Below are positions 10,488-26,101 of a stretch of DNA of 64,000 nt, piece after piece; the first letter of the stretch is position 1, and each line of letters starts with the position of its first letter. The notes under the pieces are model-generated. The model was given only the letters and a program-made list of their open reading frames with translations, searched no databases and was not told where the DNA came from. Location of the stretch: positions 2,480,001-2,544,000 of the forward strand of contig NZ_VFYP01000001.1 in the NCBI RefSeq assembly GCF_006443685.1, written 5' to 3'. The position numbers were made by a program, and so were the translations under genes. Source of the stretch: Rhizobium glycinendophyticum. GTDB lineage: Bacteria; Pseudomonadota; Alphaproteobacteria; Rhizobiales; Rhizobiaceae.

Positions 10488-10563
10488 GGGCCTGTAGCTC
10501 AATGGTTAGAGCCGGCGGCTCATAACCGCTTGGTTGGGGGTTCGAGTCCCTCCGGGCCCACCA
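10488..10563 (+). tRNA. tRNA with CAT anticodon (likely tRNA-Ile2, otherwise tRNA-Met)
   Basis: A complete 76-base cloverleaf is present with encoded CCA. The acceptor GGGCCTG pairs with CGGGCCC with one G-U. The D-arm is GCTC/GAGC. The anticodon stem GGCGG/CCGCT encloses CTCATAA, and the T-arm is GGGGG/CCCTC with TTCGAGT. Overall it is closer to the lysidine-modified tRNA-Ile(CAT) type (compare TTAGCTCAGTGGTTAGAGC of E. coli ileX) than to elongator tRNA-Met. Its last 17 bases serve as the attachment site of the neighbouring island. Confidence 0.95.
10547..10563 (+). repeat. Island attachment site, left copy (tRNA 3' end)
   Basis: TCCCTCCGGGCCCACCA is repeated exactly at 26085-26101. This copy is part of the functional tRNA. 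Flanking bases on either side differ between the two copies, so the identity is 17 bp long. Confidence 0.92.
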
Positions 10564-10614
10564 ATCTCTGCAAACCATTGATTTAAAACGAGAATTTTCA
10601 AGGCATTTTTCCAC

Positions 10615-10645
10615 CGTACACGGCAAATTACACCGCTGCGTACAC
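10615..10645 (+). promoter_or_regulatory. Possible integrase arm-type sites (CGTACAC repeats)
   Basis: CGTACAC occurs at 10615-10621 and 10639-10645 just inside the left end, and again at 25992-25998 near the right end, all in the same orientation. Short direct repeats near both ends are where tyrosine recombinases bind with their N-terminal domain. This is positional inference only. Confidence 0.35.
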
Positions 10646-10672
10646 ATTTCGAGCCAGAATGAGAGGCTTGAA

Positions 10673-12358
10673 GTGTATTTATGGAAACGCGAAAATGGAT
10701 TCACTTATCAGCAAAGAATTCCCGTTAGCGTCGAATCTCGATTTGGGAAATCACCCATCCGCGTGAATTTGGGGCCACTTCCTGCCGCTGCGGCACGGAA
10801 AAGAGCAATTATTCTTTCGGGTGCGGCCATGCAATTGATGGACGATCCGACTATGACCAGAGAAACCCTCGTTCACAGCCTGCGTGCTCTGAATGCTGAG
10901 TTGCAAGCCCTGAAGCACAAGAACTTTCCTCTCGGCGCTCTTGTCGTAAGAGCACGTCAGGAAGCGGACGAACTTGAAGCTGAGGGGGCCGAAAGCGACG
11001 CCCGCACTTTACGAGAAAAAGCTCAGCGGATTGCCGTCGAAAAAGCGGGAATAGCCGATTTTCGAAAGAGGCTCGAAGCCATCGCTGATGCCCTTTCCAA
11101 GGACTCGATTGCCTGGGAGTCGGAACGGGAAACCTTTCAATCCGTGGTGCGGACTCTCGGTTCTTTGGGCGCGCCAGTCCAGTTGCCTCAAGTTCAGCGT
11201 GAGCAGCAGGTTCAGCCTCCTGAACCTCAACCCACCGAATATAGGGATGCGCGAACGGTGACAGCATCCACCAAGTTCAGCGTCGCAGGCCGTGTAGTGC
11301 TCGATGCTCGAAAGGAAGCACTGGACAATGGTGATAAAGATAGAGTTCGCTACGAGGAGCGACTTGAAAACACGTTCTCGGCGTTCCTGAACGTCGTCGG
11401 CGATCATCCACTCAGTTTCTATTTGCCTATACACCTTCAGGACTTTGCGACGGTTATGGCAAAAGTTCCCAAAAATCGGACGAAGCACCCAATCTTCGCC
11501 GGTCTGAATCTGAAGCAGATGGTCGAAAAGAATGACAAGTTGCCTGAAAAGGACCGCATAAACAGCTTGTCTCAGACGACTGTTAAAGAGCATGTCGCGC
11601 AGATCAAACTCATCTGGGAGAAGGCAACGGCTGGTGTTACCGGAATTCGTGACATCCGATCATTTAACGTCACTATGCCCGCCGCCGCCACACCTGCCAT
11701 TAATCGGGAAGGCCTGCCGCCACTTTCGTTGAACACATGGTTGGCGGACAGTGTCAGTGCCAGGATAATGAAAAAACCGCATAAGGCTTGGTTGCCGCTC
11801 GTCGGTCTTCTGACGGGCATGCGTCTTTCCGAAATTGTCTATCTTCAATCGTCGGACATTGTCACCATCGAAGGGAATGAGGTGTTCGACCTGCGACTGC
11901 CATTGATCATAGATGGCAAGAAAGTTGATCGACCGCTTAAGACTCGTACTTCTGTGCGAATTGTCGCAATCCACCCTCTGCTTCAAGAATGTGGGTTTAT
12001 CGATTTCGCCAAAAAGCAACGAGGGCGTGGGGGATATATCTTTCCCCATTATCATACTGCGCGAGACCCCGCTGACGCGGCTCAGAAGCAAATGTCGAAT
12101 TGGATGGGTGCGCTCGACATCCACGAGTCTCAGCGTCAAGTTTTCCATTCGTTGAGACACAACGCAAAATCATGGTTCCGAATAAATGTCGGCGATGGCC
12201 TTGCAGACAAGCAATGCGGACATGCTGCTTCAACGGTCGGAGCTAAGTATGGGTTTAAAACGCTCCTGCCGGAAGAGATTCAGAAGATAATGTCTATTCC
12301 TGCACCGCGCGGCGTGGACTTCTCACCATTCATCGAATGGCGGCGTCTGGCAGAGTAA
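10673..12358 (+). CDS. Tyrosine-type site-specific integrase
   Basis: This 561-residue recombinase should insert and excise the island at the tRNA 3' end. The N-terminus (YLWKRENGFTYQQRIPV) resembles the DUF6538 domain found on many rhizobial integrases. A charged helical stretch follows (residues about 60-170), then a SAM-like core-binding domain, and the catalytic domain from about 350. Catalytic residues are visible: Arg in LLTGMRLSEIVYL near 383, the His-x-x-Arg pair in FHSLRHNAK near 491, His in CGHAAST near 516, and the nucleophile Tyr in AKYGF near 525. It sits next to attL reading inward. The catalytic set is complete, so the enzyme may be active. Confidence 0.95.
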   Translation: MYLWKRENGFTYQQRIPVSVESRFGKSPIRVNLGPLPAAAARKRAIILSGAAMQLMDDPTMTRETLVHSLRALNAELQALKHKNFPLGALVVRARQEADELEAEGAESDARTLREKAQRIAVEKAGIADFRKRLEAIADALSKDSIAWESERETFQSVVRTLGSLGAPVQLPQVQREQQVQPPEPQPTEYRDARTVTASTKFSVAGRVVLDARKEALDNGDKDRVRYEERLENTFSAFLNVVGDHPLSFYLPIHLQDFATVMAKVPKNRTKHPIFAGLNLKQMVEKNDKLPEKDRINSLSQTTVKEHVAQIKLIWEKATAGVTGIRDIRSFNVTMPAAATPAINREGLPPLSLNTWLADSVSARIMKKPHKAWLPLVGLLTGMRLSEIVYLQSSDIVTIEGNEVFDLRLPLIIDGKKVDRPLKTRTSVRIVAIHPLLQECGFIDFAKKQRGRGGYIFPHYHTARDPADAAQKQMSNWMGALDIHESQRQVFHSLRHNAKSWFRINVGDGLADKQCGHAASTVGAKYGFKTLLPEEIQKIMSIPAPRGVDFSPFIEWRRLAE

Positions 12359-12430
12359 TTGCGAAGCCACCTTTTCGCGCTCAATGAAGCCATGAAATGT
12401 ACCGCCGTCATTTGGCATGGATTCGAAAAT

Positions 12431-12832
12431 TTAACTTTGCGTGGAATTCCGAGAGTCTTCGAGTTGATATTCCAATTCGATTATTCTATCGAGCAAACTG
12501 CGTTTACGATTGTCCGGGTCGGGTAATTTTCGGAACATATCCATCATTTCTTTATAAATATTCTCGACGTTGTCTTCGGTTTCCCCTAAATCCTCGGATA
12601 TATCCCAAGCAAAACTCCAAAGTGAATGTTCTGAAATTGGACCGTCAGGTGAACTGACATCAAGCCCCAAGACTTCGGAGCGCGTTCTGACTGGCCCGTG
12701 CCACTTGAACTGGGAGGTCCAAAAGTCTTCCTTTGGATTTGCGGAAACCAAACGGGAGGCAAGATCAATATCTATGCCGAGATTGTAGCCCCGAAATTTT
12801 GTCGTGATAAATAAACCTCTCGGTTCTGCCAT
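12431..12832 (-). CDS. Hypothetical protein (island)
   Basis: This 133-residue acidic, soluble protein has no motif I recognise. It begins MAEPRGLFITTKFRGYNLG and ends in a charged helical stretch (LLDRIIELEYQLEDSRN) that may form a coiled coil. It is convergent with the integrase gene. The AT-rich codon use fits the island. It could be a cargo or regulatory gene; its reality rests on length and a plausible composition only. Confidence 0.55.
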   Translation of the reverse strand: MAEPRGLFITTKFRGYNLGIDIDLASRLVSANPKEDFWTSQFKWHGPVRTRSEVLGLDVSSPDGPISEHSLWSFAWDISEDLGETEDNVENIYKEMMDMFRKLPDPDNRKRSLLDRIIELEYQLEDSRNSTQS

Positions 12833-12896
12833 GGGATTTGCCTGCGGCTAAAGTGATGCATAAATTTTGAGTGTGGGCGGCTCGGCTGTAAACACC

Positions 12897-13133
12897 TCAA
12901 GCCATCAACCGATGAAACGCTTGCAGGCCATCTTTCCTAATTTCTGCCCTCACTGCTTCTGCCGCGCCGGGTAGGCGGGATTTGCGAACCAACGTCTTTT
13001 TCGCGCTTCCATGAGGTTGGATATAGATCGCTGCGACGTAGCAGAGAATTCCGCCGTTTTTGTCCGATTGCGACACCTCGACAATCTCGACGTTAACCGT
13101 CAGACCTCGGATTTTGGTGATCTTGTGGCGCAT
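12897..13133 (-). CDS. Small hypothetical protein (island)
   Basis: This 78-residue basic protein (MRHKITKIRGLTVNVEIVEV at the start) is preceded by a clear GGAG site eight bases before its ATG. No domain is recognised. A perfect 7-bp inverted repeat (13185-13200) lies about 50 bases upstream and could be its operator. The position near the integrase and the small basic character would allow an excisionase or regulator role, but nothing in the sequence proves it. Confidence 0.6.
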   Translation of the reverse strand: MRHKITKIRGLTVNVEIVEVSQSDKNGGILCYVAAIYIQPHGSAKKTLVRKSRLPGAAEAVRAEIRKDGLQAFHRLMA

Positions 13134-13184
13134 TGAAATCTCCGCTTTCTGTTTGAATTTATTGGGAAAATATAACAGAAATCG

Positions 13185-13200
13185 GGATTCTTGAGAATCC
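13185..13200. promoter_or_regulatory. Perfect inverted repeat upstream of the 78-residue gene
   Basis: GGATTCT and AGAATCC are exact 7-bp arms separated by TG. The site lies 52 bases upstream of the minus-strand gene that starts at 13133 and could bind a dimeric regulator. Confidence 0.45.
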
Positions 13201-13634
13201 TCCGGGCGGATTTGATGTCGGCTTTGGGATAGCGTTGATTAACGGAGTTGGTTGGATTCTAACGACTTTTGCGGAGCGACTGCCTGCCTTGGTTTCGGGT
13301 GCCGAACGGAGCGGGAGGGTTGTCAAGGGGCCGCCCAGAGCCACGCACAGGCCGCAAGGCCGAGCATGGCGAGGACGGTGCGTAGCGAACCCTTGACTGA
13401 CCGGAGCGACAAATCCTACCGCAACCAGAGCAGGACAAGGAGGGCAAAGCCCGCAATGCCCTGCTCCGGACTAGCCCCCCGGCAATGAGGGTGGAGGCGG
13501 GCAAGGCCGCAGGCCGCGACAGGGGGCAAAGCCCCCGCGAGGTACGTCAGCAAATTTTTTTTGAGGCAGGTTTCGAGACCTGATTTCGAGGAAAATTTTC
13601 TGAAAACGGTTGTTTGTCAACGGAATAACAGAAA

Positions 13635-13657
13635 GCAAAATGCAACTTGCATTTTGC
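13635..13657. repeat. 23-bp palindrome (11-bp arms) in the origin zone
   Basis: GCAAAATGCAA and TTGCATTTTGC are perfect arms around a single C. The stem can be extended imperfectly by AAA/TTT-rich flanks. Its AT-rich make-up and lack of a U-run favour a cruciform or protein-binding site over a terminator. Confidence 0.7.
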
Positions 13658-13810
13658 ACTTTGCTTTGTTTTCATTGGCTTTTTTAATCCGCCTCTTGCG
13701 CTATTTTCGCTCTTCACCTACCTTTGTTTGCAGGAAAGCCGATCAGGGTTTTTTGTCACCCCTAGGGGGATTGGAATTAAAGTTCTCGGACTTTTATTCA
13801 GCTTGATCGG

Positions 13811-13821
13811 TCTTTCCTATC
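13811..13821 (+). other. Candidate rolling-circle nick site (pC194-like)
   Basis: TCTTTCCTATC matches 10 of 11 bases of TCTTTCTTATC, the remembered core nick region of pC194-family plasmids. The island Rep protein downstream has the HUH layout of that broad group. The comparison is from memory and the site is short, so it is only a candidate. Confidence 0.3.
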
Positions 13822-13865
13822 GCCTGGGTCCAAACTTGGCGTGGATTTGAACGAACGGACTTTCA

Positions 13866-14077
13866 CCGCCGTGCAGGTGGCTCTGAAAGTACATGCGGCC
13901 CTGAACCGGTCGTGTTTTTCCGCCGTATAGGCGGCTCTTATTCCCTGCGTCAGCAGGGATGTCCCGCTTCTGTCATCGACAGTGGCCTTTCTCTGCAAAC
14001 GCAGAGTCAGGGAGCGCATTCGTGCGCTCTCGCTTTCAACTATCATCAGCAACTCTGCTTCCCGTCTCAACGGGAAG
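13866..14077 (+). other. Array of seven short stem-loops upstream of a small-gene operon
   Basis: Seven separate perfect or near-perfect hairpins lie in 212 bases. They are CCGCC-GTGCA-GGTGG (13866), CCGCC-GTATA-GGCGG (13920), CCCTGC-GTCA-GCAGGG (13943), CTGTC-ATC-GACAG (13970), CTCTGC-AAAC-GCAGAG (13991), GAGCGCA-TTCG-TGCGCTC (14012) and CTTCCCGT-CTCA-ACGGGAAG (14058). The first two share flanks (both followed by CTCT) while a stem base pair changes from G-U to G-C and the loop differs. The last ends 35 bases before the next start codon. It could be a structured leader RNA, a separate ncRNA or a single-strand origin. Confidence 0.7.
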
Positions 14078-14112
14078 GGGCGAAGCTTTGCCAAAATTTG
14101 GAAAGGAAGACC

Positions 14113-14433
14113 ATGTTTCACCAGATTGCTACGAAGGTCGAGGAAATCGCGACCGGTACACCACTTGAGCAAATAAAGGGCTCGACCACCGTCCGCGTCG
14201 CTGTCGGTTTGATTGTTGGCAAGTGCCTCACCAACGTCGAGTTCTCTGATCGACAAGCCTGGGAGATGTTGGATGAGGTCCAAAAGAAGGCCGTCGTTCA
14301 TCATAGACCGAAATCCAAATATGCCAGATGGCTCGCCAAGGAAGAGGCTGAAGACAGACGCCTTACCGAGGAGCTGCGAAAAGAGGGACGCCTCACTGTG
14401 GTTCTCTCCGATGGGACTGTTCTGAATGGCTGA
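14113..14433 (+). CDS. Small hypothetical protein, paralogue of the 14608 gene
   Basis: This 106-residue protein starts at the ATG preceded by GGAAGG; the frame is open further upstream, but that part crosses the hairpin array. Its core (EIATGTPLEQIKGSTTVRVA then VGLIVGK and AWEMLDEVQKKAVVHH) aligns with the product of the gene at 14608. This shows the two are paralogues. No named domain is recognised. It is the first gene of a three-gene overlapping operon lying between the stem-loop array and the rep gene, so it probably belongs to the element's replication or maintenance module. Confidence 0.7.
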   Translation: MFHQIATKVEEIATGTPLEQIKGSTTVRVAVGLIVGKCLTNVEFSDRQAWEMLDEVQKKAVVHHRPKSKYARWLAKEEAEDRRLTEELRKEGRLTVVLSDGTVLNG

Positions 14434-14608
14434 GCTGGATTTCCTCAAACTACTTGAGCGCCACCGTACGGAACGACTGGCTGCGTTGGTGAAAGATCAG
14501 CCGCCCGAATTTTGGGCGGCTGTCGGCGAAAAGCTCGATAGCTCCCCTGACGAGACCATCACTATGGATGAACTTATGGGGCTGCTGCGTGAAAAGGATT
14601 TGGATTGA
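14426..14608 (+). CDS. Small hypothetical protein (60 aa) in three-gene operon
   Basis: This 60-residue acidic protein (MAELDFLKLLERHRTERLAA at the start) overlaps the end of the preceding gene by eight bases and the start of the next by one base. Such tight overlaps imply translational coupling. It looks helical and has no recognised domain. The conserved spacing with its neighbours is the main reason to accept it as real. Confidence 0.65.
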   Translation: MAELDFLKLLERHRTERLAALVKDQPPEFWAAVGEKLDSSPDETITMDELMGLLREKDLD

Positions 14609-14901
14609 TGTTCAGACAGCTTTCAAAGGATGACCGATCTATCCGTCACGACAGCGTATATTTGGAGATTGGGCAGTGCGTAGCCGCTGTGGCGCGTGGC
14701 ACGCCGATCCATGATCTTCAATGCTCATCCACTATCCATATGGCGGTTGCCTTCATTGTCGGGGCCAGGGTCTGGAACGCAAACTGGAGCGACGAGGCTA
14801 TCTGGAAGATGCTCGACAGATGGCAACGTCTCGCGGTCTTCGACCATGGAGTTCACCCGGCGTTCAAGGCCGTGGCGGTCGATGACACTCTTGGCGTTTG
14901 A
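14608..14901 (+). CDS. Small hypothetical protein, paralogue of the 14113 gene
   Basis: This 97-residue protein starts at the ATG inside the TGATG overlap with the preceding stop; a TTG three bases earlier is less likely. Its core (AVARGTPIHDLQCSSTIHMA, VAFIVGA, IWKMLDRWQRLAVFDH) matches the 14113 product position by position. The common pattern is a GTP-(L/I)-x3-x-ST start, a hydrophobic (V/A)xxIVG turn and a (A/I)WxMLD helix. A symmetric terminator follows 36 bases later. The function is unknown; it may be a plasmid-type maintenance protein. Confidence 0.7.
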   Translation: MFRQLSKDDRSIRHDSVYLEIGQCVAAVARGTPIHDLQCSSTIHMAVAFIVGARVWNANWSDEAIWKMLDRWQRLAVFDHGVHPAFKAVAVDDTLGV

Positions 14902-14937
14902 TCGATTGACGCCGAAAGTTTTTCCTCTGACCATAAA

Positions 14938-14978
14938 AAAACACCGCGTCACAGGGCTGGAACCCTCAGCGGTGTTTT
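14938..14978. terminator. Bidirectional-type intrinsic terminator
   Basis: AAAACACCGC and GCGGTGTTTT are exact 10-bp arms. The 21-base interval includes a second small stem, AGGG/CCCT. A and T runs on both sides allow it to stop transcription in either direction. It separates the small-gene operon from rep. Confidence 0.85.
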
Positions 14979-15041
14979 CGATCATTGTTTAATAAAGATG
15001 AACAAAGAAATGTTTATTGTAAAGCTCCAATTGACGATTAG

Positions 15042-16862
15042 GTGAGCGCCGGGCTGGCAAATAGCCCAGCCCCAGAACGACAGACAGACGATTTTCAAAA
15101 AAGAAATGTTGACATTAATCGGAAGCCAGAAGCTTCCGGTCGCCGCAGGTCAAATGACCGCGCCATTTCAAGGCTATTCGACGATCTCCCACCTGCACCT
15201 GAAATTAAATCGTTCTCCGACGGTGAACGGGCTGTTCGTGCTGTCGTTTCCAAGAATCTAGAGGCCGCCAAGGCAAGGCCGCAGGCCGCGCAGAACCGGG
15301 CCGAAAAGGCCCGTCTCGATAAAGGAGACGCTACGTTGACACCTTCAGGTGACGGCGTGGTGACTCCGCAAAAGGAAGAGACCGAACCAAGGACATCTAA
15401 CGACAGTCGACAAATCCAGAGGTGGAGACTGAAACACACCGTCGCCAATGTCCTCCGTGCCGCAACGCCAGCAGGAGGAAAAACTCCGGGGGTCTGCAAA
15501 TGTGGCACGGCGAAGCGTTGCGAAGACGGATCGGAAGCCCCGTTTGTAACTTTCTACAACCAGGATGGCAGACCGGGCATTCGGGGCGTCTTTTATTGCG
15601 ACAGCCCTTGGCTTTGCCCGACTTGCGCGCCCCGCTGCGCTGCTAAACGGGCTGAGAGCGTCCAGCGGGTTTTCGACGCAACGGAGAGGAAAGGCGGGCA
15701 AGTCGTTTTCATCACCTTGACGGTTCGGCACGGTCCAGAGGACGAGCTGAAGGATTTGAAAAAACTCGTGACCAACGCTTGTACAAAGGTGCGGCAGGGC
15801 AAGCCTTGGGCTTTGGCTGTCAAGCGTCACGATATCCAGGGTGTATTGGTTGGCCCGGAGGTGACGTGGAGTCTAAAGGCGGGATGGCATTTCCATCTTC
15901 ACCTGGCTATACCGATGATCGAGAAGGACGACGGCGTGTCGACCGCCGAAGAGCGTGCGAAAGCCGCTGGTGAATGGATCATCAATCGGTATTTGGCGTA
16001 TATCCAACGCGAAGGCGGTAACGTCCAGCGCCGGTACTATGGGGAAAAAGACGAACCTACCGCTCTTCGCGAAGCCCAGGACGTGCAGGTTGTTTGGCGT
16101 CGTGAAGACCTCGCCGACTATATTGCTAAGGGGTCCGGGGCATGGGAAGTCGCCGCCGCTGGAGCGACGAAGACCCGCACAAAAAATCGGCGGATCGGCG
16201 GCATGACCCCATGGGACTTGGCAGCGCGTGCTGGACGTGGCGACAAGATCGCTGCAGCACGGTTTGCCGAATATGCAAGCGTTATGCCCGGAACAAGGTC
16301 CTGCATCATCACAAAGGCCCTGGCCGACAAACTCGGCATTCAGCCAGATGCAGATGGAAAGGAAGGCGAAGGGGAGCCCGATGACGAGGACAACGGCACT
16401 ATCGTTGTCGGCAGTCTGGAAACGAAGCGTTGGCATCGGGTGCTGCGGATGGGCTATGCGCCTGATGTGTTACGAGCAGTTGGGCATTGCCAGCCCTGGC
16501 CAGAGATTGACGGGATGGTACGGCGTTTCCTTGGCGAGACTGAGGAGGAGCCGGTCAAGTCTCCGGAAACACAGCAAATGGAACGGGACTTCGAGCAGAT
16601 ACAGCGGGAGCCGTTGCCGTCGCATCCCGTGATGCTGCCGCCTAAGTTCCACGAGCCAACGCTGGGCGAACTGATCAGCGAGATTGAACAAGTAGCGGTG
16701 CTACAGTTTCGCGGCAGCAAAGGACGGGCGGTGCAGGCAGTGCTCGATGCGCACCGGGCCAAAGCCGATTCGATGGGCGCACCGGATGACAAGGGGCGTC
16801 CGAAAGGGTTGCCATGTGTGTTTCCGCCGTTTGCGGAAATCTGGCAAGCACTCGCGGCGTAG
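15042..16862 (+). CDS. Rolling-circle replication initiator (HUH Rep protein)
   Basis: This 606-residue protein should nick an origin and start rolling-circle replication. After a long, probably disordered N-terminus come a cysteine cluster (CPTCAPRCAAKRAES near residue 193), a VFITLTVRHG strand, the metal-binding GWHFHLHLAIP (HUH-type) near 281-289, and a catalytic Tyr-x-x-Lys-like LADYIAKGSGAWE near 360. RIGGMTPWDLAARAG follows, as in other Rep_1-like proteins. The only reasonable start is the GTG at 15042, with a weak ribosome site. It follows a terminator, so it should have its own promoter. Finding a Rep in an integrated element suggests the excised circle can replicate. Confidence 0.82.
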   Translation: MSAGLANSPAPERQTDDFQKRNVDINRKPEASGRRRSNDRAISRLFDDLPPAPEIKSFSDGERAVRAVVSKNLEAAKARPQAAQNRAEKARLDKGDATLTPSGDGVVTPQKEETEPRTSNDSRQIQRWRLKHTVANVLRAATPAGGKTPGVCKCGTAKRCEDGSEAPFVTFYNQDGRPGIRGVFYCDSPWLCPTCAPRCAAKRAESVQRVFDATERKGGQVVFITLTVRHGPEDELKDLKKLVTNACTKVRQGKPWALAVKRHDIQGVLVGPEVTWSLKAGWHFHLHLAIPMIEKDDGVSTAEERAKAAGEWIINRYLAYIQREGGNVQRRYYGEKDEPTALREAQDVQVVWRREDLADYIAKGSGAWEVAAAGATKTRTKNRRIGGMTPWDLAARAGRGDKIAAARFAEYASVMPGTRSCIITKALADKLGIQPDADGKEGEGEPDDEDNGTIVVGSLETKRWHRVLRMGYAPDVLRAVGHCQPWPEIDGMVRRFLGETEEEPVKSPETQQMERDFEQIQREPLPSHPVMLPPKFHEPTLGELISEIEQVAVLQFRGSKGRAVQAVLDAHRAKADSMGAPDDKGRPKGLPCVFPPFAEIWQALAA

Positions 16863-17019
16863 CCTCCCCGGATATAGAGGGGTCTGCCGGAAGGCTCTCG
16901 ATGAAGTCGTCCCTCGGAGGAGGCCCCCCGGCAAGGTCCGGCTGAAGGTCCCTCCATGGAATGGCCGACGCCTTCGAAGAATGCGTTAGTCGGTCACTAC
17001 AGCTTTGCTACCCCTGGAC

Positions 17020-17922
17020 TCAAACTTGGACCGCATCAGGAACGTCGTATGTGTTCCCGGAAAACCCTGAACGTAACCGATGATCGAGGAGAGCCGTTAA
17101 AATGTCTCGACATGTCTCCGGCGTCGGGACGATCTTCCCGTCAGCATCGAAGACAATGTTAAGCTCATACTCCGCGAACCGAAGCCGCAGATTACTCATG
17201 AACGCCGCATCTTTATAGAACGATTTCGAACGGATCGCAGACATGCGGCGCAGTTGAAGCCGATTTGTACCGACGAACTCGCTCAACGGTGCCAAGTCAG
17301 AAAAGACCTCGGCAAACTCTGTCTCCGCCTGCATTTCAGCAAAATCATTCTCATGAGCAGCTCGATAGTTCAATATTGTTTCAAAGTTTCGTTTGTCAGA
17401 AACAAGCAACTCGCCGTTGATGCAAAAGAAATCAAATGTTCTGTGGATTTTGAATCCGTCGTCTTCGGCAAGATCAAGCTCCCGATCTTTGTAGATAGCC
17501 GTTAAAACGCTGGTGGCTGCTTTGGTTCTCCACGATGGATCGGTTCTTCGCGCGGCGAATACCACCTGCCCATTTCGAACAAATCTAACAACATAGAATT
17601 TGGCGTTGCGCAGTGTTTTCACTGAGCGTGTCTTGCGTCCATTGGTAACCTGGCCAATCGCCTCAGCGATCACATGCACATCGGTCTCGTCCGAAGGAAG
17701 CGTCAGGACACTTTCTTCGTTGTTCTGGGCAAGAAGACTATAATCTTGCTCCTCTGAAAACCCTTGGAGCTGAGACAGAAAAACACGTTTTAGCTCTTGA
17801 TCGAGGTCGTCTGTCGTCTCGATCCAATGGCCATTGACTGCTGGAATCGTACCTTTGAACGTCCAAAGTGTTAAATCGGCTTCCTCAACATTGAACGCTT
17901 TGAGGTTCGCGAGTTCCGTCAT
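17020..17922 (-). CDS. kwaB: Kiwa anti-phage system protein KwaB (DUF4868)
   Basis: This 300-residue protein matches the DUF4868/KwaB pattern as I remember it: a mixed N-terminal half, a central strand (FYVVRFVRNGQVVFAARR), and the hallmark KIHRTFDFFCINGELLV with NFETILNYRAAHENDF. After these come FVGTNRLQLRRMSAIRSKSF, YKDAAF and a C-terminal LLDHRL. In Kiwa, KwaB works with the membrane protein KwaA to stop phage replication after phage attack is sensed at the envelope. The gene overlaps kwaA by four bases (ATGA), which is the expected order kwaA-kwaB on the minus strand. Codon use is AT-rich, consistent with recent acquisition. Confidence 0.88.
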   Translation of the reverse strand: MTELANLKAFNVEEADLTLWTFKGTIPAVNGHWIETTDDLDQELKRVFLSQLQGFSEEQDYSLLAQNNEESVLTLPSDETDVHVIAEAIGQVTNGRKTRSVKTLRNAKFYVVRFVRNGQVVFAARRTDPSWRTKAATSVLTAIYKDRELDLAEDDGFKIHRTFDFFCINGELLVSDKRNFETILNYRAAHENDFAEMQAETEFAEVFSDLAPLSEFVGTNRLQLRRMSAIRSKSFYKDAAFMSNLRLRFAEYELNIVFDADGKIVPTPETCRDILTALLDHRLRSGFSGNTYDVPDAVQV

Positions 17923-18530
17923 GAATCCCCCCCTTTCCGCCTTTCCTTTCGCACGACCATGACATCTTGAATCGCACCGTACCGGACTTCGTCCCCAGCA
18001 TTTAGTTCGCTGTCAGCTAAAACAAGACAATCGTGCTCCAAGCTTTCCCCATCATGCTTGAACGTCACATCGTACAATCTCCAGTCGAGAACTATCAAAA
18101 TTGGATTCATTATCAATTGACCGGATTTGTAGGTAATCCAGAAAATCCAAAATAGGAAAACAATCATTCCAACGAATTTACTTTGCTCTGAGTATCCAAC
18201 CCCCATAAAAGAAACGACATAAGGCAGCGTATAATTCATCAACTCCGTTGGTACGTATTTAGCTTTTATGACTTCTATTTTTCTCTTTGCTTTCGTCAGA
18301 CGAAATATCAATAAAGTTGCAAGCAAACTTAAAAGGCAAAAGACAAATATCGAAAGTGATATCTTCGGATTCGAAAACGGGAGGGTACAACGTCCGGGTT
18401 GGGTAAAAATTTCTACGCAGAACTCTTGTGATAGGTACTTGTATTCAAAATCCTGCGCCAACAAGATCAATGATAGCGGGAAGTAGGAACCAGCAAAGAT
18501 AACGATTGCCGCCCATAGCCTCAACTGCAT
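17919..18530 (-). CDS. kwaA: Kiwa anti-phage system membrane protein KwaA
   Basis: This 203-residue protein has about four membrane segments (around residues 5-25, 56-77, 98-112 and 118-134) and a soluble C-terminal beta-rich tail (YDVTFKHDGESLEHDCLVLA). Length, topology and direct coupling to kwaB fit KwaA, the envelope sensor of the Kiwa system. A strong GGGAGG site sits eight bases before the ATG. The gene is divergent from the relaxase gene. The membrane protein itself diverges fast, so the call depends partly on its partner. Confidence 0.8.
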   Translation of the reverse strand: MQLRLWAAIVIFAGSYFPLSLILLAQDFEYKYLSQEFCVEIFTQPGRCTLPFSNPKISLSIFVFCLLSLLATLLIFRLTKAKRKIEVIKAKYVPTELMNYTLPYVVSFMGVGYSEQSKFVGMIVFLFWIFWITYKSGQLIMNPILIVLDWRLYDVTFKHDGESLEHDCLVLADSELNAGDEVRYGAIQDVMVVRKERRKGGDS

Positions 18531-18551
18531 TGCCTATCCTCCCTATCGACC

Positions 18552-18563
18552 AGTTGCACAACT
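18552..18563. promoter_or_regulatory. Inverted repeat between kwaA and the relaxase gene
   Basis: AGTTG and CAACT are perfect 5-bp arms separated by CA. It lies 22 bases upstream of kwaA and 86 bases before the relaxase start. It could be an operator for the divergent promoters or part of an origin of transfer, which MobV systems usually carry just upstream of mob. Confidence 0.35.
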
Positions 18564-18648
18564 TCTAGCTATCTTCAAGTCCCGCCTTCGCTCAACGTGG
18601 TTTCTTGCAAGCAACGCCGCGATCCTTCTGCCATCAAAGGAGATGGCA

Positions 18649-19908
18649 ATGGGCTACCAGTTCGTACACCTCGAATCTTATTCCAGGAAACCCGATGCGA
18701 AGGGGCGGGGTACCGATTTCGTTTTTGCAGAGGCATCTCGCAAACCGGAGGCCTCTGTTCACGTTGCGAACCCTGCGCCTCCCATTGTCGTCTTTGGTAT
18801 CGGCATCGATCAGACACAGGAACTGCATGACACGTCCGTGGCGTCTACCTACATCACCGTGAAGGGGGGCAAACCGCGAAAAATACGGCTGGACCAGAAA
18901 ACGGTCCATACGGTGGTCGCCTCTCATCCCTACACTATGGACGAGGTCAGGGCCGACCCGACAAAGCGCCGAGAAGTTGAAGAGTGGGAGCGTCGGACGG
19001 TTGCGTGGTTGAGGGATCAATATGGCGGCGACCTGAAAAGCGTGATTAGGCACGAAGACGAAAGCCACTGGCACGTCCATGCCTATATCCTGCCGCTATC
19101 CGATCCCGCTCTTCGGGCAGCAAAGTATCATCCGGGGACGACCGCCAAACGTGCCGTTATGGACGCCGGTCCCATTGCCGGAGAGGACCAAAAAGCGCTC
19201 GGGAAGCGGGCTGACGCCCAATACAAATATGCGATGAGGCAGTGGCAGGATTCCTACCACGAAGCAGTTGCCGTCCCTTCCGGCCTTACCCGGCTTGGCC
19301 CGCAACGTCGTCGCCTGTCGAGAGACGAATGGCAGCGGGAACAAGTACAAGCCCAGGCACTGAAGAAAACAATTGAAAAGGCAAAGATCGTCAAAGCCAA
19401 CGGCGAAACCTTTATCGCCAAAACGAAAGCTGACGCAGCCACGGTCGCCGCCGATGCCGCTCGCCGACAGGAGGCTGCTCGTAAAGCTTCTGCCGCTGCG
19501 CTGGCTGCGCAGGATCGCGCACGAAAGGAGCAAGAGCAAGCGCGTGCCTCAATGGCCGATGCCGATAAATATAGCGGTTGGGCCGGTCGTCTCCGGGCGG
19601 TTTGGGATGGTCTGCGGAAATCAAAACTCGCTGAGAGAATACGCTATGAACTGAAGGGCGAAATCGACCGCTGGCGGGATGTTGCACAGATTGCTGAGCG
19701 CAGACAGCTTGAAGCTGAGCGCCAGCGCTTCGACGCAGAGCGGAAAGCGCGTGATGCGCAAGACGCGGCGATGCGCGCTGGAATCGAGCGCGACCGGCTG
19801 CGGTCGATTCTTTCTCCGACCTCCGATCCGGCTTCGCCGGACCTGTCACCCAGCCCGAGGCTCGTTTTGAAACCCAATTTTGCAAAAAAGGAAAAACGTG
19901 ATGCTTAA
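18649..19908 (+). CDS. MobV/Pre-family relaxase
   Basis: This 419-residue mobilization protein should nick the origin of transfer. The N-terminal half contains HEDESHWHVHAYILPL near residues 135-150, the HxDE-x-HxH metal-binding motif of MobV/Pre relaxases, plus an upstream AWLRDQYGG helix. The C-terminal half (about 220-400) is a long, highly charged coiled coil rich in Ala, Lys and Glu, usual for this family. ATG 18649 lies six bases after AAAGGAG, while the ATG at 18643 abuts it, so 18649 is preferred. It overlaps a short downstream frame at 19901. Confidence 0.85.
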   Translation: MGYQFVHLESYSRKPDAKGRGTDFVFAEASRKPEASVHVANPAPPIVVFGIGIDQTQELHDTSVASTYITVKGGKPRKIRLDQKTVHTVVASHPYTMDEVRADPTKRREVEEWERRTVAWLRDQYGGDLKSVIRHEDESHWHVHAYILPLSDPALRAAKYHPGTTAKRAVMDAGPIAGEDQKALGKRADAQYKYAMRQWQDSYHEAVAVPSGLTRLGPQRRRLSRDEWQREQVQAQALKKTIEKAKIVKANGETFIAKTKADAATVAADAARRQEAARKASAAALAAQDRARKEQEQARASMADADKYSGWAGRLRAVWDGLRKSKLAERIRYELKGEIDRWRDVAQIAERRQLEAERQRFDAERKARDAQDAAMRAGIERDRLRSILSPTSDPASPDLSPSPRLVLKPNFAKKEKRDA

Positions 19909-20008
19909 ACTCGGTGTCGCGGCGATCATGGGCAACCACAATATCACCGTCCGGACGACGAAGGGCGACTTTTCCGCAGATTTGGTGCTGTCAATCATGA
20001 TCTCCTAA
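19901..20008 (+). CDS. Possible 35-residue protein coupled to the relaxase gene
   Basis: An ATG at 19901 overlaps the relaxase stop by eight bases and opens a 35-codon frame (MLKLGVAAIMGNHNITVRTT, then KGDFSADLVLSIMIS). AAGGA lies at a workable distance upstream. Overlap and ribosome site favour translation, but the product is too short to judge by composition and resembles nothing I know. Confidence 0.35.
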   Translation: MLKLGVAAIMGNHNITVRTTKGDFSADLVLSIMIS

Positions 20009-20073
20009 ACGCTCTCTGGCTAAGAGCTTGAGGCGGGGGGACTAAAGGAGCAATCCCCCGCGCCGTCTGGGCC

Positions 20074-20334
20074 TTATTGCACGAGCAGCGGGCCGCCGTT
20101 CATGTGCCGCAGGAATGCCTCTTCCGCCCCTTTCCGCGCTTCCGCCTCGGTTTCAGCATGCCACTGGCCGACGCAGACGTCGTTCTCGTTGTTGTTCGGG
20201 TCTAGATCAAGCCGGTCGACAAAGTAGGCGTACCTACCCACAAAGGCATTGCTCACTTCAAGCAAGTATCCGACATCCTCCGACATTACTATTTCACAAA
20301 TTTTCCCATTCCAGTCGAAGCTCACTTCTCGCAT
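20074..20334 (-). CDS. Small hypothetical protein (island)
   Basis: This 86-residue acidic protein begins MREVSFDWNGKICEIVMSED after a clear CAGGAG site. The frame is open back to 20430 but without a ribosome site. It contains an N-terminal beta strand pair and a C-terminal helix (EAEARKGAEEAFLRHM). No family is recognised. The promoter region carries two TCGATGTA direct repeats (20400-20407 and 20412-20419), which could bind a regulator. Confidence 0.55.
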   Translation of the reverse strand: MREVSFDWNGKICEIVMSEDVGYLLEVSNAFVGRYAYFVDRLDLDPNNNENDVCVGQWHAETEAEARKGAEEAFLRHMNGGPLLVQ

Positions 20335-20484
20335 TTTCGTCTCCTGTTGTTGAGAATGCGGAGATGAACACGAAATAAAACTGCCGTCAATAAGTGAAAT
20401 CGATGTATTTTTCGATGTAAATGTCAACATATCCGGAATATTATTCGGATTTCAGTGCTAATTACTATTTTCAGCAGAACTCCT

Positions 20485-21252
20485 TTACTTGGGTTCTGGA
20501 ATTCCTTGCTCGCCGTCGTTCTTCCGGGACAATTCCTTTTCCCTTCGTGCTTCTTCGGCGTCGCGCAGCTTGCGGAATTGCCATCGGATTGCTGCAGACT
20601 GGAAATTCCTGATGATATCGGCGCTCGAATTTGCGCGGCACATCAACAAGTCGGCGGGGTCGGATGCGTAGGCTTCGTCTAAATATTGGTGCGTCTCGGC
20701 TGGCGACATGAGCTTGATCGCGGTTAGGGCATCATTCTGGTGGCGTGCGTCTGTCAGGTCGGACATGACCTCGCCAAGGTACGGGCGATAACCCCAATTT
20801 CTATAGCGGGGCGGAAAAAGCTCGTGATCTGGATCGGCTTCCCACGCCACTTTCATCTCGGCCTTCCGGCTGAGCTTGATACCGCGCTCATCCAGCATCC
20901 GCGTCCATTCCTTGCGGCTGTAACCGTCGCAATGGTCATCGTGGCCGGGTGCTGGGGCGAAGTCCCTGCTTGGGTCCGGCGTCCAGTCTGTCGGGTCTGC
21001 AATGGGATCGGGCCGATACGAAATAGAGCGTGTGAATGCTGCAAGGAGGGATTCCTGCATCGCGAGCACGGCCAGCAAGAAAAGAAGCAGCATGCGTCGG
21101 CGGCGCTTTCGAGCTTCCTCAATCTGGCGGCGCAGACGATCTGTGCGCCTACGATACTCGTCTGCCCTCCGCTCGCGTTTTCGGCGGCGACGTTCTTCCC
21201 GCTTCCTGACTTGTGTTTTTTGTCCTGGCGTAAGTCTCTGATGTAACTGCAT
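20485..21252 (-). CDS. Membrane-anchored basic protein of unknown function (island)
   Basis: This 255-residue protein has a highly basic N-terminal coiled-coil segment of about 45 residues (many RR/RK/ER repeats). One hydrophobic segment (MLLLFLLAVLAM) follows near residue 54, and then a soluble domain of about 180 residues with YSRKEWTRMLDERGIKLSRK. The ATG at 21252 follows an AAGGAGG site; the frame opens at 21300. Topology suggests a single-pass inner-membrane protein with a cytoplasmic positively charged arm. It lies between the mobilization genes and the restriction operon and reads away from the latter. Its role is unknown. Confidence 0.6.
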   Translation of the reverse strand: MQLHQRLTPGQKTQVRKREERRRRKRERRADEYRRRTDRLRRQIEEARKRRRRMLLLFLLAVLAMQESLLAAFTRSISYRPDPIADPTDWTPDPSRDFAPAPGHDDHCDGYSRKEWTRMLDERGIKLSRKAEMKVAWEADPDHELFPPRYRNWGYRPYLGEVMSDLTDARHQNDALTAIKLMSPAETHQYLDEAYASDPADLLMCRANSSADIIRNFQSAAIRWQFRKLRDAEEARREKELSRKNDGEQGIPEPK

Positions 21253-21478
21253 CGCAATCCTCCTTGAAACAAGGATCACGTTCGGCGGCGCATACAGCAA
21301 GGTGTCCGGATAGACGCAAGTTTCGGTTGCTATTTAGTCCCGATCAATTTGGCAGAAACCTGCCTATAACCCACTGATCGGGCGAAAAAAATGACTTTGG
21401 TCCATCGGAAATTGTTAGTGTCCCTCTTGAGGAATCGCATTTGTTCACGTAATGTTCCGGCGAATTTGGAGTTCTCTG

Positions 21479-22834
21479 ATGGCGCGTAATGTTAAAAAAA
21501 TAGATAAAAAACAACATTTTAAGCCAAAAGTTCTTGATTTGTTCTCAGGGGCTGGCGGAATCTCGTGGGGATTCCATTCTGCGGGTTTCAAGATAATCGG
21601 CGGCCTCGATTATTTTGGTGCCTCTATCGAATCCTTCGAGAAGAACATGCCCGAAGCTGTCGGCATGGTTCGAGATTTGCGTAAGCCAGGGTTCGATGAC
21701 GTTCGTGATGTGATCGGTACGGAGGATATCGATGTCATAGTCGGGGGGCCCTCATGCCAGGGCTTTTCTACAAGTGGCGGTTTAAGTCGCACTTCTGGTA
21801 GAGACGAATCCGACCCGAGAAATAGGCTTTTCATTAACTATCTCGACATGGTTGATGAATTCCGCCCCTCTTGGATCGTATTCGAAAACGTGCCGGGCTT
21901 GCTTCTGTATAATCAGGGCCGCGTCGCTATCGACATCGTTCGGGCATTCAAGGAGATTGGTTATTCGGTAGCGCCTATGATTCTGCTGGCGGCCGATTTT
22001 GGAGTGCCGCAGCTTCGCCGCCGCTTGTTTTTTGTCGGCAACCGTACTGGCGCTGACAATTGTTTTCCTGCTGCGACGCATGGGAATCCGGAACTTTGGA
22101 AAAATTACTCTCTGCCTTTCGCACACCTCTCTCGGATCGGCCACGGGGCAAATAGAGAAGTCGCGCCACATGTGAGTTTTGCAGACGCCTGTTCCGATCT
22201 TCCACCAATTGAGGAGGGCGAAGAACTCAACGGTGCTCAGTACCTTTGCGATCCTACTACACCCTATCAAGCGTTGATGCGGACACATTCGCAGACGGTT
22301 GAGCAACATGCCGCTGCGGACCTTCCTAGCCTAGACAGGCTCGCGGCTACGGTCCTTTTGGAGGGGCAGAACTGGCGAAATATGCCCGCCAATTCTCTCC
22401 CTGCCAGATTTAGCCGTATTCGCCCTTATGACGCGACGACGCTGCTCAAGCGTCTTTCGAGCGGACTGCCGTCCTACACGATCACGACAAAATTCAATGA
22501 AGCGACCACGGGCGCGTTTATCCATCCCACTCAAGCTAGAACGATCAGCTTGCGCGAAGCGGCGCGTTTGCAGTCGTTCCCGGATCATTTCCTGTTTTCG
22601 GGCACTGCGTCTCAAATAAGGCAGCAGATTGGGAATGCTGTACCGCCAATACTCGCACAAGCTATTGCGGAAGCGATCTATCCGAGCGTTGTCCGCGATG
22701 TCTTCAAAGAAAATGTCGAATCAACTAGAGATAGTGTTGTCGTCGAGAATAGTTTGACTGAAAGCGACATATTGAAGCTCAAAGCACCTAGAAGGGTTCG
22801 TGAGCAGGAAGAAATCACCTACGATCAGGTTTAA
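21479..22834 (+). CDS. DNA (cytosine-5) methyltransferase
   Basis: This 451-residue enzyme should methylate C5 of cytosine within a specific site using AdoMet. The ordered 5mC-methyltransferase motifs are all present: I (LDLFSGAGGIS near residue 20), IV with the catalytic cysteine (VGGPSCQGFS near 88), VI (FENVPG near 136), VIII (QLRRRLFFVG near 175), IX/X (LREAARLQSFPDHF and QIGNAVPP near 385). The target-recognition region lies between VIII and IX. ATG 21479 follows GGAG at the right distance. It is followed within five bases by a McrB-like gene, so it is most likely the protecting enzyme of a restriction system. Confidence 0.95.
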   Translation: MARNVKKIDKKQHFKPKVLDLFSGAGGISWGFHSAGFKIIGGLDYFGASIESFEKNMPEAVGMVRDLRKPGFDDVRDVIGTEDIDVIVGGPSCQGFSTSGGLSRTSGRDESDPRNRLFINYLDMVDEFRPSWIVFENVPGLLLYNQGRVAIDIVRAFKEIGYSVAPMILLAADFGVPQLRRRLFFVGNRTGADNCFPAATHGNPELWKNYSLPFAHLSRIGHGANREVAPHVSFADACSDLPPIEEGEELNGAQYLCDPTTPYQALMRTHSQTVEQHAAADLPSLDRLAATVLLEGQNWRNMPANSLPARFSRIRPYDATTLLKRLSSGLPSYTITTKFNEATTGAFIHPTQARTISLREAARLQSFPDHFLFSGTASQIRQQIGNAVPPILAQAIAEAIYPSVVRDVFKENVESTRDSVVVENSLTESDILKLKAPRRVREQEEITYDQV

Positions 22835-22839
22835 TTTCT

Positions 22840-24573
22840 ATGCCCTTCGTTTCGATAAAGCATATCGAATTATCTCTAGCATATATGTTCGAGCACACTC
22901 ATCCGACAACAATGAGCGTGCTCGCATTGGCGAGAGCTGGGGCACCTGTAGGCGACGATCCTTCGCGGGCAATCAAGTTTGGTGCCGGTACAGAGCGCGA
23001 GTTGATGGAGGACTATTTTAAACCTGTGGGCGGCAGCCCGGATCGGCCATACTACGTGCCGTTTGGTGACCCACAGGGAAAGACACGATGGCGTGAAAAG
23101 ACCTATCCGGGCCGCAGTCTCCAACGACAGCGCCAGGATAGGAAGGCGGTTTTCCGGCAACATCCCGATGATAAGACGAAGTGGGCATTTGCGGCTGGAG
23201 CCACTGAATGGATTGCGGCTAACGGACCTCATGTGATCGGGGACGTGCCGATCATTATAGCTTATCTTGCGGCTTGGCTTTATCGAGGTCAGCAGATTTC
23301 CTCCTGGGAAGAGGCGGTAGAGCAATTTGTCAGAGAGTTCAAACTCGCCGACCTAAGTCTACTTGGGGCAGCGTTTAGCACCGATATCCCTCAAGATTTA
23401 TCCGAGTTGCCGTTCGACGACGAGAAGATTGACGAAGCGGTCCTGCTTGAGCTTTTGCAGACTAAGGAGCCTGTGAAAACGAACGACGGTTCGGGGTCGG
23501 GGGGCGTTCACGACTTGGTTCCGCTCGTCGATCCCGGATTGGTTACCGCTCCGCTCCAGACAAGTGGAAGTTGGAAACTCGACATCGCAGACTTAGAAGA
23601 CCTAGATGGGTTGCAGGGAGTCTTAGAACCAGCGAGACGTGCAGTGGCAGCTTTAAGGGCGGGTATGCACGTCATCTTCACAGGCCCACCGGGAACAGGA
23701 AAAACGTCGCTCGCCCGGGCATTGTTGTCGAAGGCGGATTTCGCTTACGACATAGTGCCTGCAACGGACCAGTGGACAACATTTGATACTATCGGCGGAT
23801 ATTTTCCTCGGCCGCAGACAGACGGCACTGAACGGCTCGATTTTATGCCTGGCAAGATTGTTCAGGCCATCGAGAAAGGCGAGTGTCTAATCGTCGATGA
23901 AATAAATCGTGCTGATATCGACAAGGCCTTCGGAGAGCTGTTCACACTACTTACCGGCAATTTTGTGAGCCTGCCTTATCAGAGGCGCTGGGAGCCAGAA
24001 CCAGGCAAGACAGAGTTTCGGAATATTCGCTTGCAATTCGGCCCCGCAAAAGCCGATGACGCTGACGACGTAATACCAGTACCGATGTGGTGGCGGCTTA
24101 TTGGTTCGATGAACGACTCAGATAAAGCCAGCCTAAAGAAGCTTTCAATGGCGTTCGTACGCCGTTTCGCTTTCGTCCCAGTGGACCTACCTGACCAAGC
24201 CATTTTCGAGAGCCTTATTCGCGCATGGGTTGATAAGACTGAAGCGAAGAATGCGGGGCGAGAGCAAATGGTAGCTATAACGGATGCGCTGGTATCGCTC
24301 TTCGCTGATGCGGAAAATGGCTTTGCAAAAATCGGGATGCCTTTGGGTCCATCCTTTGCGAAGAGCGCCATCGAATATGCGGATAGTGAGTTCCATATCG
24401 ATGCCAGTCGTTCTGCTGAGGATGTGCTATTGTCGGCGTTCGAACTGCATATAATGCCGCAGTTTCAGGGGAGGCCAGATTTGCATGAGGCATGCCGCGA
24501 ACTGATCGGGCACTTTGTCGGTGGTGAGGATCGCGTTGACGCCCATTTAGCCGTTTGGACTGGCTATATATAA
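22840..24573 (+). CDS. McrB-like AAA+ NTPase of a restriction system
   Basis: This 577-residue protein has an unassigned N-terminal region of about 240 residues, likely for DNA recognition, and then an AAA+ domain. Walker A is TGPPGTGKTS near 281-289. The Walker B stretch LIVDEINRAD near 351-360 is the DEINRA signature of McrB proteins, and GSMNDSDKASL near 422 corresponds to the McrB sensor region. A helical lid closes the protein. McrB proteins use NTP to translocate and to drive a McrC nuclease. It lies five bases after the methyltransferase gene and directly abuts the nuclease gene. The N-terminus is not the usual McrB DUF3578 domain as far as I can tell. Confidence 0.85.
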   Translation: MPFVSIKHIELSLAYMFEHTHPTTMSVLALARAGAPVGDDPSRAIKFGAGTERELMEDYFKPVGGSPDRPYYVPFGDPQGKTRWREKTYPGRSLQRQRQDRKAVFRQHPDDKTKWAFAAGATEWIAANGPHVIGDVPIIIAYLAAWLYRGQQISSWEEAVEQFVREFKLADLSLLGAAFSTDIPQDLSELPFDDEKIDEAVLLELLQTKEPVKTNDGSGSGGVHDLVPLVDPGLVTAPLQTSGSWKLDIADLEDLDGLQGVLEPARRAVAALRAGMHVIFTGPPGTGKTSLARALLSKADFAYDIVPATDQWTTFDTIGGYFPRPQTDGTERLDFMPGKIVQAIEKGECLIVDEINRADIDKAFGELFTLLTGNFVSLPYQRRWEPEPGKTEFRNIRLQFGPAKADDADDVIPVPMWWRLIGSMNDSDKASLKKLSMAFVRRFAFVPVDLPDQAIFESLIRAWVDKTEAKNAGREQMVAITDALVSLFADAENGFAKIGMPLGPSFAKSAIEYADSEFHIDASRSAEDVLLSAFELHIMPQFQGRPDLHEACRELIGHFVGGEDRVDAHLAVWTGYI

Positions 24574-25839: not shown

Positions 25840-25991
25840 TGTTCATGTCGGGTGGTGGTGCGTCCGCGCCTGATGTTCATTCCATCTCCGGTCAATCAGC
25901 TTGCGTTCGGCGACTGCCCGTTCAGCTAGGACGAAACCTAAACTCGACGATGTCTGTCGTCTGGGTGAATGTTGACATTTTCTGAAACAAG

Positions 25992-25998
25992 CGTACAC
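25992..25998 (+). promoter_or_regulatory. Possible right-end integrase arm-type site
   Basis: CGTACAC here matches two copies inside the left end. The stretch 25840-26084 between the nuclease gene and attR holds no convincing gene. Confidence 0.3.
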
Positions 25999-26084
25999 AG
26001 AAAGCAGCTCGAAAACGTATCCGAAAGCCCTGTAACCGTCTGTATTCGTTTCTAATCTAGGCTTGCGCCGGTATGCCCGCTTCC

Positions 26085-26101
26085 TCCCTCCGGGCCCACC
26101 A
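26085..26101 (+). repeat. Island attachment site, right copy
   Basis: TCCCTCCGGGCCCACCA is an exact copy of the tRNA 3' end at 10547-10563, without the rest of the tRNA. It marks the right boundary, after which ordinary chromosomal base composition returns. Confidence 0.92.

Follow-up and report, generated by a model that had tools for sequence, protein, structure and literature searches.

A row of short hairpins on a predicted rhizobial mobile element, some resembling CRISPR repeats, as a possible RNA decoy

A predicted mobile element and its hairpin array

The window analysed here, the whole 64,000-nucleotide stretch of the 4.8 Mb Rhizobium glycinendophyticum genome (G000), contains a predicted integrated element of 15.5 kb (10547..26101), the ends of which are inferred from a 17-bp direct repeat present at 10547-10563, where it forms the 3' end of a tRNA-Met gene, and again at 26085-26101. 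The element encodes an integrase (10673-12358, with a Pfam match just under the cut-off), a small conserved gene that marks this family of elements (c78, 12897..13133, - strand), a Rep_1 protein (15042-16862), the Kiwa defence pair KwaA/KwaB (17020-18530, - strand) and a MobV-like relaxase (18643-19908, below both the Pfam and the NCBIfam cut-offs). Further to the right, the region 21452-25839 encodes a cytosine methyltransferase, an ORF with weak ATPase matches and an ORF without a match, which together may constitute a restriction-type defence module. A terC RNA element (27801-27861, - strand) lies 1.7 kb beyond the right end of the element.

Between c78 and the Rep_1 gene lies a row of hairpins. 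The first-pass annotation had described seven consecutive short stem-loops at 13866..14077, one with a UUCG loop, and these are indeed present: scanning with a minimum stem length of 5 bp recovers seven hairpins, their stems 5-9 bp long, within 212 nt. Reading along the + strand, h1 (13859..13890) has a core at 13861-13888 and a stem at 13866-13880 (CCGCC-GUGCA-GGUGG) and sits inside an outer helix of 7 bp, whilst h2 (13916..13943) has its stem at 13920-13934 (CCGCC-GUAUA-GGCGG); both resemble type I-F CRISPR repeats. The change of a stem pair from G-U in the first of these to G-C in the second (CCGCC/GGTGG versus CCGCC/GGCGG), pointed out in the annotation, is confirmed. Between them the predicted fold contains a further, weaker hairpin with G-U pairs (hx, 13893..13915). 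Next comes h3 (13938..13966, stem 13942-13959, UUCCCUGC-GUCA-GCAGGGAUGUCCCG), which resembles a type I-E repeat, then h4 (13966..13986, stem 13970-13982, CUGUC-AUC-GACAG with a short outer helix), h5 (13991..14006, CUCUGC-AAAC-GCAGAG), h6 (14010..14031, a 9-bp stem closed by the UUCG loop) and h7 (14058..14077, an 8-bp stem). The hairpin scan also picks up an additional small hairpin after h7, at 14079-14092.

The 220-nt stretch that holds the array has the highest hairpin score in the window (120, the next independent stretch scoring 98). Folded as RNA, the + strand of the 276-nt array reaches -111 kcal/mol, compared with -90.1 +/- 5.6 for shuffled sequences (z -3.73, with none of 200 shuffles as good); the corresponding figures for the - strand are z -3.22 and one of 200. 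An open frame spans part of the array. A coding gene was considered and rejected: the frame giving the longest peptide over the first hairpin contains a stop in the related genomes G234 and G295 (read by eye), and the loops vary among relatives. The GNRNA loops also prompted a boxB-like reading.

Immediately upstream lies a conserved stretch (13724..13858, + strand), the place where a promoter would be expected; the promoter-like site scan found none within it, the sole + strand site before the array in the window scan being at 13614-13641. Downstream, as the annotation had stated, the array directly precedes an operon of small genes, ending about 36 nt before the first ATG with no terminator between the two. 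The first ORF of the three (14113..14433, + strand) encodes a 106 amino acid protein of no accepted family, with no Pfam or NCBIfam match, a single PHROG match at E 0.06 and no hit in a search of the genome contigs; its predicted structure has a pLDDT of 72 and a pTM of 0.45. Some longer relatives of this protein carry a DUF7706 domain. The second ORF (14426..14608, + strand, 60 amino acids) has no Pfam, NCBIfam or PHROG family and the third (14605..14901, + strand, 97-98 amino acids) is a paralogue of the first (blastp 37.5% over 64 amino acids, E 1e-14) with one weak, sub-cut-off Pfam match, to DUF1923. A terminator-like hairpin evident in the sequence at 14941..14979 (+ strand), part of which (14956-14970) was caught by the scan, closes the operon. 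About 200 bases spanning this terminator and the first 30 or so rep codons (14897-15127) are 82% identical in G234 and G017, the rest of the window Rep protein having no match in either; the shared block could be a shared origin or a fused N-terminal tag.

Conservation of the array

Among 394 genomes of the family, the array DNA matches those of G234 (89%), G017 (83%) and G330 (79% over bases 25-93 of the 276-base query). Fifteen of the 394, the window's own genome included, match at E <=0.01, the others only over short lengths, and we take the short matches outside G234, G017, G330 and G265 to be due to chance. No match beyond the window's own was found in 27 genomes of the genus, and a pattern scan of 84,980 species genomes returned two records, a Rhizobiales isolate and Rhizobium skierniewicense, which are taken to be G234 and G017. 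The c78 gene is present in 18 of the 394 family genomes and arrays were found beside it in six of these (G000, G017, G234, G330, G295 and G107), a count that rests on stretches to both sides of c78 at most loci, some being shortened at contig ends.

Outside the family, a DNA search of plasmids and phages gave no matches. Viral contigs searched with the relaxase, a relative of the 106 amino acid protein and three hairpin patterns (which returned one, three and no stretches) yielded no accepted relative. The three viral stretches found with the h4 pattern were judged on their folds only. The sole viral hit to the I-F pattern (L123) lies inside a DNA polymerase-like ORF and is counted as chance despite scoring E 2.2e-5 with the I-F-like model described below.

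When four segments of the element were compared across three genomes, the array proved the best conserved, with 92.6% identity between the window and G234 and 84.7% between the window and G017. The corresponding values are 70.7% and 74.1% for the integrase gene, 68.8% and 69.7% for c78, and 85.6% and 56.4% for the stretch from c78 to the array; a blastn block covering 13724-14108 is 79% identical in G017. From one element to another (window, G234, G017 and G330), the ORFs that follow the array are not alike. Both findings, the high conservation of the array and the lack of relation among these ORFs, are in keeping with an RNA working in trans.

Leaving h7 aside, 3 of 104 stem positions differ from the window in G234 and 10 of 104 in G017; for unpaired positions the counts are 4 and 14 out of 70. 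With the arms written out by hand, standard pairs are formed at 60 of 60 places in the window, 57 of 58 in G234 and 56 of 58 in G017, in which the second arm of the outer helix of h1 lies beyond the reach of the pair-check script. The stems are kept in two relatives, hx included (in G017 with one broken pair); h3 shows one compensatory pair change (G-C to A-U), the two arms of h7 change length in step, and hx, h4 and h6 show exchanges between Watson-Crick and G-U pairs on the + strand. Together these observations support the selection on structure that the annotation had proposed. The exchanges also bear on the strand: read on the other strand they would be A-C, so that the mRNA-sense strand is likely the one that folds.

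This is relevant to another suggestion made in the annotation, a single-strand replication origin. In this reading the array would serve as an origin or promoter while the element is in single-stranded form, as it replicates by a rolling circle or is transferred by MobV. Rows of hairpins suit such sites, the element encodes both a Rep_1 and a MobV-like protein, and the array is conserved whilst the Rep proteins differ. In Frpo-type promoters, however, the folded strand is the template strand, contrary to what the G-U exchanges favour here, albeit from few informative pairs. Moreover, G107 has an array, between promoter-like and terminator-like sites, although a comparison over 5 kb yielded no match to MobV there, and an origin would leave the resemblance to CRISPR repeats, to which we now turn, unexplained. 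We regard it as decidedly improbable.

Resemblance to type I-F repeats

The annotation held that the array fits no known feature. This is not borne out, because h1 already matches, below the cut-off, the Rfam CRISPR repeat family CRISPR-DR4 (24.2 bits against a gathering score of 35; E 0.0063 in 521 bases). Searched for in the whole window the same match has E 0.78 and is third of all matches to 4,227 Rfam families, after a tRNA and terC. The second hairpin reaches 18.0 bits (E 0.5), also below the gathering score, and the G295 array 26.7 bits (E 8e-4), where there is also a weaker match at E 3; the G330 array has no CRISPR-DR4 match.

A genuine type I-F locus for comparison is found in G505 (L116), where 28-nt repeats recur every 60 nt beside a match to Csy3 that passes its cut-off and less strong ones to Csy1 and Csy4. 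Of the 28 letters of this repeat, h1 and h2 share 21 and 18 in the window, 19 and 18 in G234, 20 and 18 in G017, and 22 and 21 in G295. In G330, hairpins with all five stem pairs reach at most 15 of 28. When 8,648 background hairpins with that geometry are scored in the same way, 18 is reached by only nine: G265 accounts for five, L057 and L058 share one sequence, counted twice, and L048 and another part of the window contribute one each. Both h1 and h2 keep the C6-G20 pair at the base of the stem; the outer helix of h1 is absent from the G505 repeat.

The comparison also works in reverse. A model built from seven I-F-like array hairpins (the I-F-like model), searched against 714,506 bases without its source arrays, ranked the G505 CRISPR repeats first, with 17 places, of which 13 score 30.7 bits (E 1.6e-8), followed by places in G265 (7e-8 and 2.3e-6, with later ones at 2.3e-4 and 0.0025), L123, G107 (0.0016) and G330 (0.0017). 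The model had not been trained on G107, where the place at E 0.0016 lies near c78, and a further array was found in the next stretch of that genome at E 9.1e-8 (in 183,015 bases); in this search of further flanks the earlier G107 place scored E 4.1e-4 and the next best overall 0.15.

The G265 genome has no c78 match and an array DNA match of E 9.8e-4. It contains three I-F-like hairpins with GAACA loops, spaced 380-410 bp apart (L020, about 5270-6150, - strand), together with a terminator-like hairpin that directly follows at least one copy. The I-F-like site in this genome could be part of an alanine-rich ORF.

Resemblance to type I-E and I-C repeats

For type I-E, a model (R1) was made from nine repeats with 61-nt spacing taken from eight Cas1 loci of the family, Cas1 being present in 53 of the 394 genomes; the type was checked by cas genes for G330 only (Cse1, Cas7, Cas6e and Cas1e), the other loci being typed by likeness of their repeats. 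Over 588,554 bases without its source loci, the best distinct matches of R1 are both in arrays, in G295 (22.2 bits, E 2.5e-4) and at h3 of G017 (21.5 bits, E 4.2e-4), and are followed by three places outside arrays at E 0.026-0.027. The h3 hairpin of the window itself scores lower: that search lists it on the - strand only (10.4 bits, E 4.3), whilst an unfiltered search of the array alone gives 13.0 bits on the + strand (E 2.2e-4 in 281 bases, equivalent to E about 0.5 in the 588 kb search) and 10.4 bits on the - strand. One of the three places outside arrays is a hairpin in G009 (L046 2972-2998, E 0.026), 0.5 kb from c78, which is I-E-like and is possibly a solitary mimic.

Counted by letters, h3 is identical to an I-E repeat at 20 of 29 positions in the window and in G234 and at 19 in G017, and G295 has hairpins at 21 and 19; among 3,437 background hairpins of I-E geometry the best two reach 19 and none reaches 20. 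In G330, an I-E-like hairpin with one mismatched pair reaches 20 of 29 (p 0.0075), although R1 scores best there (14.7 bits) on the other strand of that array. The h5 stem is the same as that of the I-E-like hairpins of G295; the match in the window is not significant (R1 4.9 bits).

An I-C model, made from eleven repeats assigned to this type by likeness, finds no match in the window (best + strand score 2.0 bits). In relatives, a G330 hairpin followed by GATTGAAAC is the fourth distinct match of the model (E 0.44 in 630,878 bases) and a G107 hairpin followed by CGTGGATTGAAAC, which gives that array an I-C-like end, is the third (E 0.33 in 183,015 bases). With 12-nt flanks none of 400 shuffles is as good as either site; with 9-nt flanks the G330 site has p 0.05.

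Shuffles that keep the structure were applied to 30 hairpins picked by eye from six arrays (G234 being left out, and G017 being not independent of the window), with five repeat groups in one run and three in the other. Against any type, p is at most 0.03 for sixteen of the 30; hairpin c of G330, when counted with longer flanks, makes a seventeenth (17 of 30). In the window these are h1 (p 0.0025, 0/400), h2 (0.03) and h3 (0.0025). For I-E alone h3 has p 0.005 (score 12); its best match in the panel is a repeat of the reverse transcriptase-Cas1 locus of G320 (score 15), the best panel match of its G017 counterpart being I-E. The G320 locus (L117 8610-10676, - strand) encodes a reverse transcriptase-Cas1 fusion beside several arrays with repeats of up to 37 nt. 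No match to the panel was obtained for the remaining window hairpins (hx p 0.34, h4 1.0, h5 0.90, h6 0.95, h7 0.71) or, in relatives, for h4 and h7 of G017, b3 of G295, a, k and z of G330, and e and a2 of G107.

GC-rich hairpins in a GC-rich genome might come to look like repeats simply because many repeats are compared. Several repeat types were compared here, the single-window values are weak for h1 (E 0.78) and for h3, and the viral coding stretch L123, selected by pattern, scores well with the I-F-like model. Against this stand the reciprocal searches, the background of the same geometry and the conservation of the array, which already disfavour chance and leave it very improbable. Judged on sequence comparison, the mimicry of CRISPR repeats is likely real.

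Leader or free-standing RNA

In G295 and G107 the array is closed by a strong hairpin with a T-rich stretch behind it (a simple scan flagged that of G107 and missed that of G295). The G107 array is preceded by promoter-like sites, including TTGACT-17-CATTAT just before it (two sites found against 0.7 expected by chance), and has one terminator-like site (against 0.6 expected). Both arrays have the appearance of independent RNA genes, a point in favour of action in trans. The window array, on the other hand, leads into an operon, so that a role as a leader may exist beside a role in trans or instead of it.

The main rival explanation is built on this second possibility: the array would be a structured, cis-acting 5' leader of the small-gene operon, controlling mRNA stability, antitermination or translation, and its resemblance to repeats would be incidental. 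The short, terminator-free distance to the first ATG agrees with this, as do the same-strand ORFs that follow the array in the window, G234, G017 and G330 and the five of eight window hairpins that match no repeat. The ORFs behind the array are, however, unrelated between elements, a strong hairpin and T-rich stretch separate the array from the next ORF in G330 as well as in G295 and G107, and the I-E search, the shuffles and the reciprocal I-F-like search make a chance resemblance to repeats unlikely. We consider a simple leader unlikely, though not negligible.

A variant keeps the resemblance and makes it functional in cis. Host Cas6 would cut or bind the mimics and thereby switch the operon, so that the array would sense CRISPR-Cas instead of acting as a decoy. 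In the window, G234, G017 and G330 the putative leader ahead of the small ORFs does contain repeat-like hairpins, but the arrays of G295 and G107 are closed by a terminator-like hairpin before any ORF, and this reading seems improbable.

A decoy for CRISPR proteins

Our best guess as to function, which we hold to be somewhat probable, is that the array is a row of hairpins on a predicted mobile element whose predicted RNA serves as a decoy for CRISPR proteins of more than one type. The + strand would be transcribed, h1 and h2 would offer sites for Cas6f and h3 a site for Cas6e, and the RNA would probably hold Cas6, and proteins assembling on it, away from genuine crRNAs; the element would thereby be protected on entering cells equipped with CRISPR systems of these types. 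The other hairpins (hx and h4-h7) may space or stabilise the array, or they may be mimics that are worn or that copy repeats outside the panel. The earlier idea of an ncRNA that titrates something is supported by the three repeat-like hairpins of the eight, which would titrate Cas proteins. The combination of I-F-, I-E- and I-C-like hairpins varies from relative to relative, as would be anticipated for a set of decoys built from modules.

Candidate targets of the decoy can be sought among CRISPR systems in the family. Csy4 was found in none of five hosts checked (the window genome, G234, G017, G330 and G265), and of these only G330 has Cas1. The type I-F protein Csy3 is absent from all 394 family genomes, the window's included, and present in two of 385 genomes of the class, G505 among them; given this rarity, the most constant mimic, that of type I-F, has few known targets. 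In G330, a genome of the same genus, an array with an I-E-like hairpin coexists with Cse1, Cas7, Cas6e and Cas1 encoded elsewhere beside two repeat arrays.

A comparison of 848 spacers with the elements gave 111 hits at E <=0.05, against 50 with reversed spacers, and no convincing protospacers among them with the exception of one type II-C spacer. This spacer, from G215, has a 27/29 protospacer-like match in a region of G069 (L048 8335-8363) located 6 kb from a c78 gene.

Comparison with known systems

Mobilizable elements are known to carry several hairpins before small ORFs in the form of Frpo promoters and single-strand origins, and the array is like them in all three respects; it differs in its strand preference and in its resemblance to CRISPR repeats.

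Genuine CRISPR arrays, represented by the I-F array of G505 and the I-E array of G330, share with the row the hairpin, the loop size and parts of the flanks of single repeats. Their near-identical repeats follow each other at a regular 60-61 nt, however, whereas the hairpins here differ from one another, with stem starts 54 nt (h1 to h2) and 22 nt (h2 to h3) apart, and searches of the window genome for Cas1, Csy3 and Csy4 found none.

The closest likeness is to the Racrs, RNA anti-CRISPRs described as encoded in solitary repeat units, each a lone and nearly identical copy of one repeat (Camara-Wilpert et al. 2023, PMC10651486). The repeat mimic RacrIF1 engages Cas6f and Cas7f in an aberrant subcomplex, and its stem-base pair C6-G20 is essential; the published Racr finder retained only solitary matches of at least 90% identity, clustered ones being dropped (PMC10651486). 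A cluster of divergent mimics would be discarded by existing searches, because only solitary, near-identical repeats are kept. In the literature searched, which took in few subscription papers and no preprints, we found no report of clustered mimics of several subtypes.

A more speculative proposal, in which we have rather less confidence than in a decoy function as such, is that the arrays represent a poly-Racr, a swappable cassette of I-F, I-E and I-C mimics in a single transcript that would give mobile elements of the Rhizobiaceae a broad-spectrum RNA anti-CRISPR; where the cassette is linked to an operon, cleavage by host Cas6 would additionally release and switch the anti-defence genes behind it. 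If this is true, RNA-based evasion of CRISPR is commoner than the published search can see, protection against several subtypes fits into about 250 nt of an element, and there is a use for rows of hairpins that annotation leaves blank.

Set beside the Racrs, the array has in common with them CRISPR-repeat-like hairpins on a mobile element (here a predicted one, recognised by its integrase, 17-bp direct repeat, MobV-like relaxase and Rep_1 protein) away from cas genes, the C6-G20 pair kept at the base of the I-F-like stems and a place, seen at times for Racrs and predicted for the window array, in a single transcript with small genes. Likeness to a CRISPR repeat in both sequence and structure is found in h1, h2 and h3 and is lacking in hx and h4-h7. 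The array falls outside the published class of solitary mimics of at least 90% identity: its mimics are clustered, belong to several subtypes and are mixed with hairpins that match no repeat, and their identity to the repeats compared here is at most 79% (22 of 28, in G295; 21 of 28 at best in the window). On present comparisons it is best read as a putative clustered, multi-subtype relative of the Racrs.
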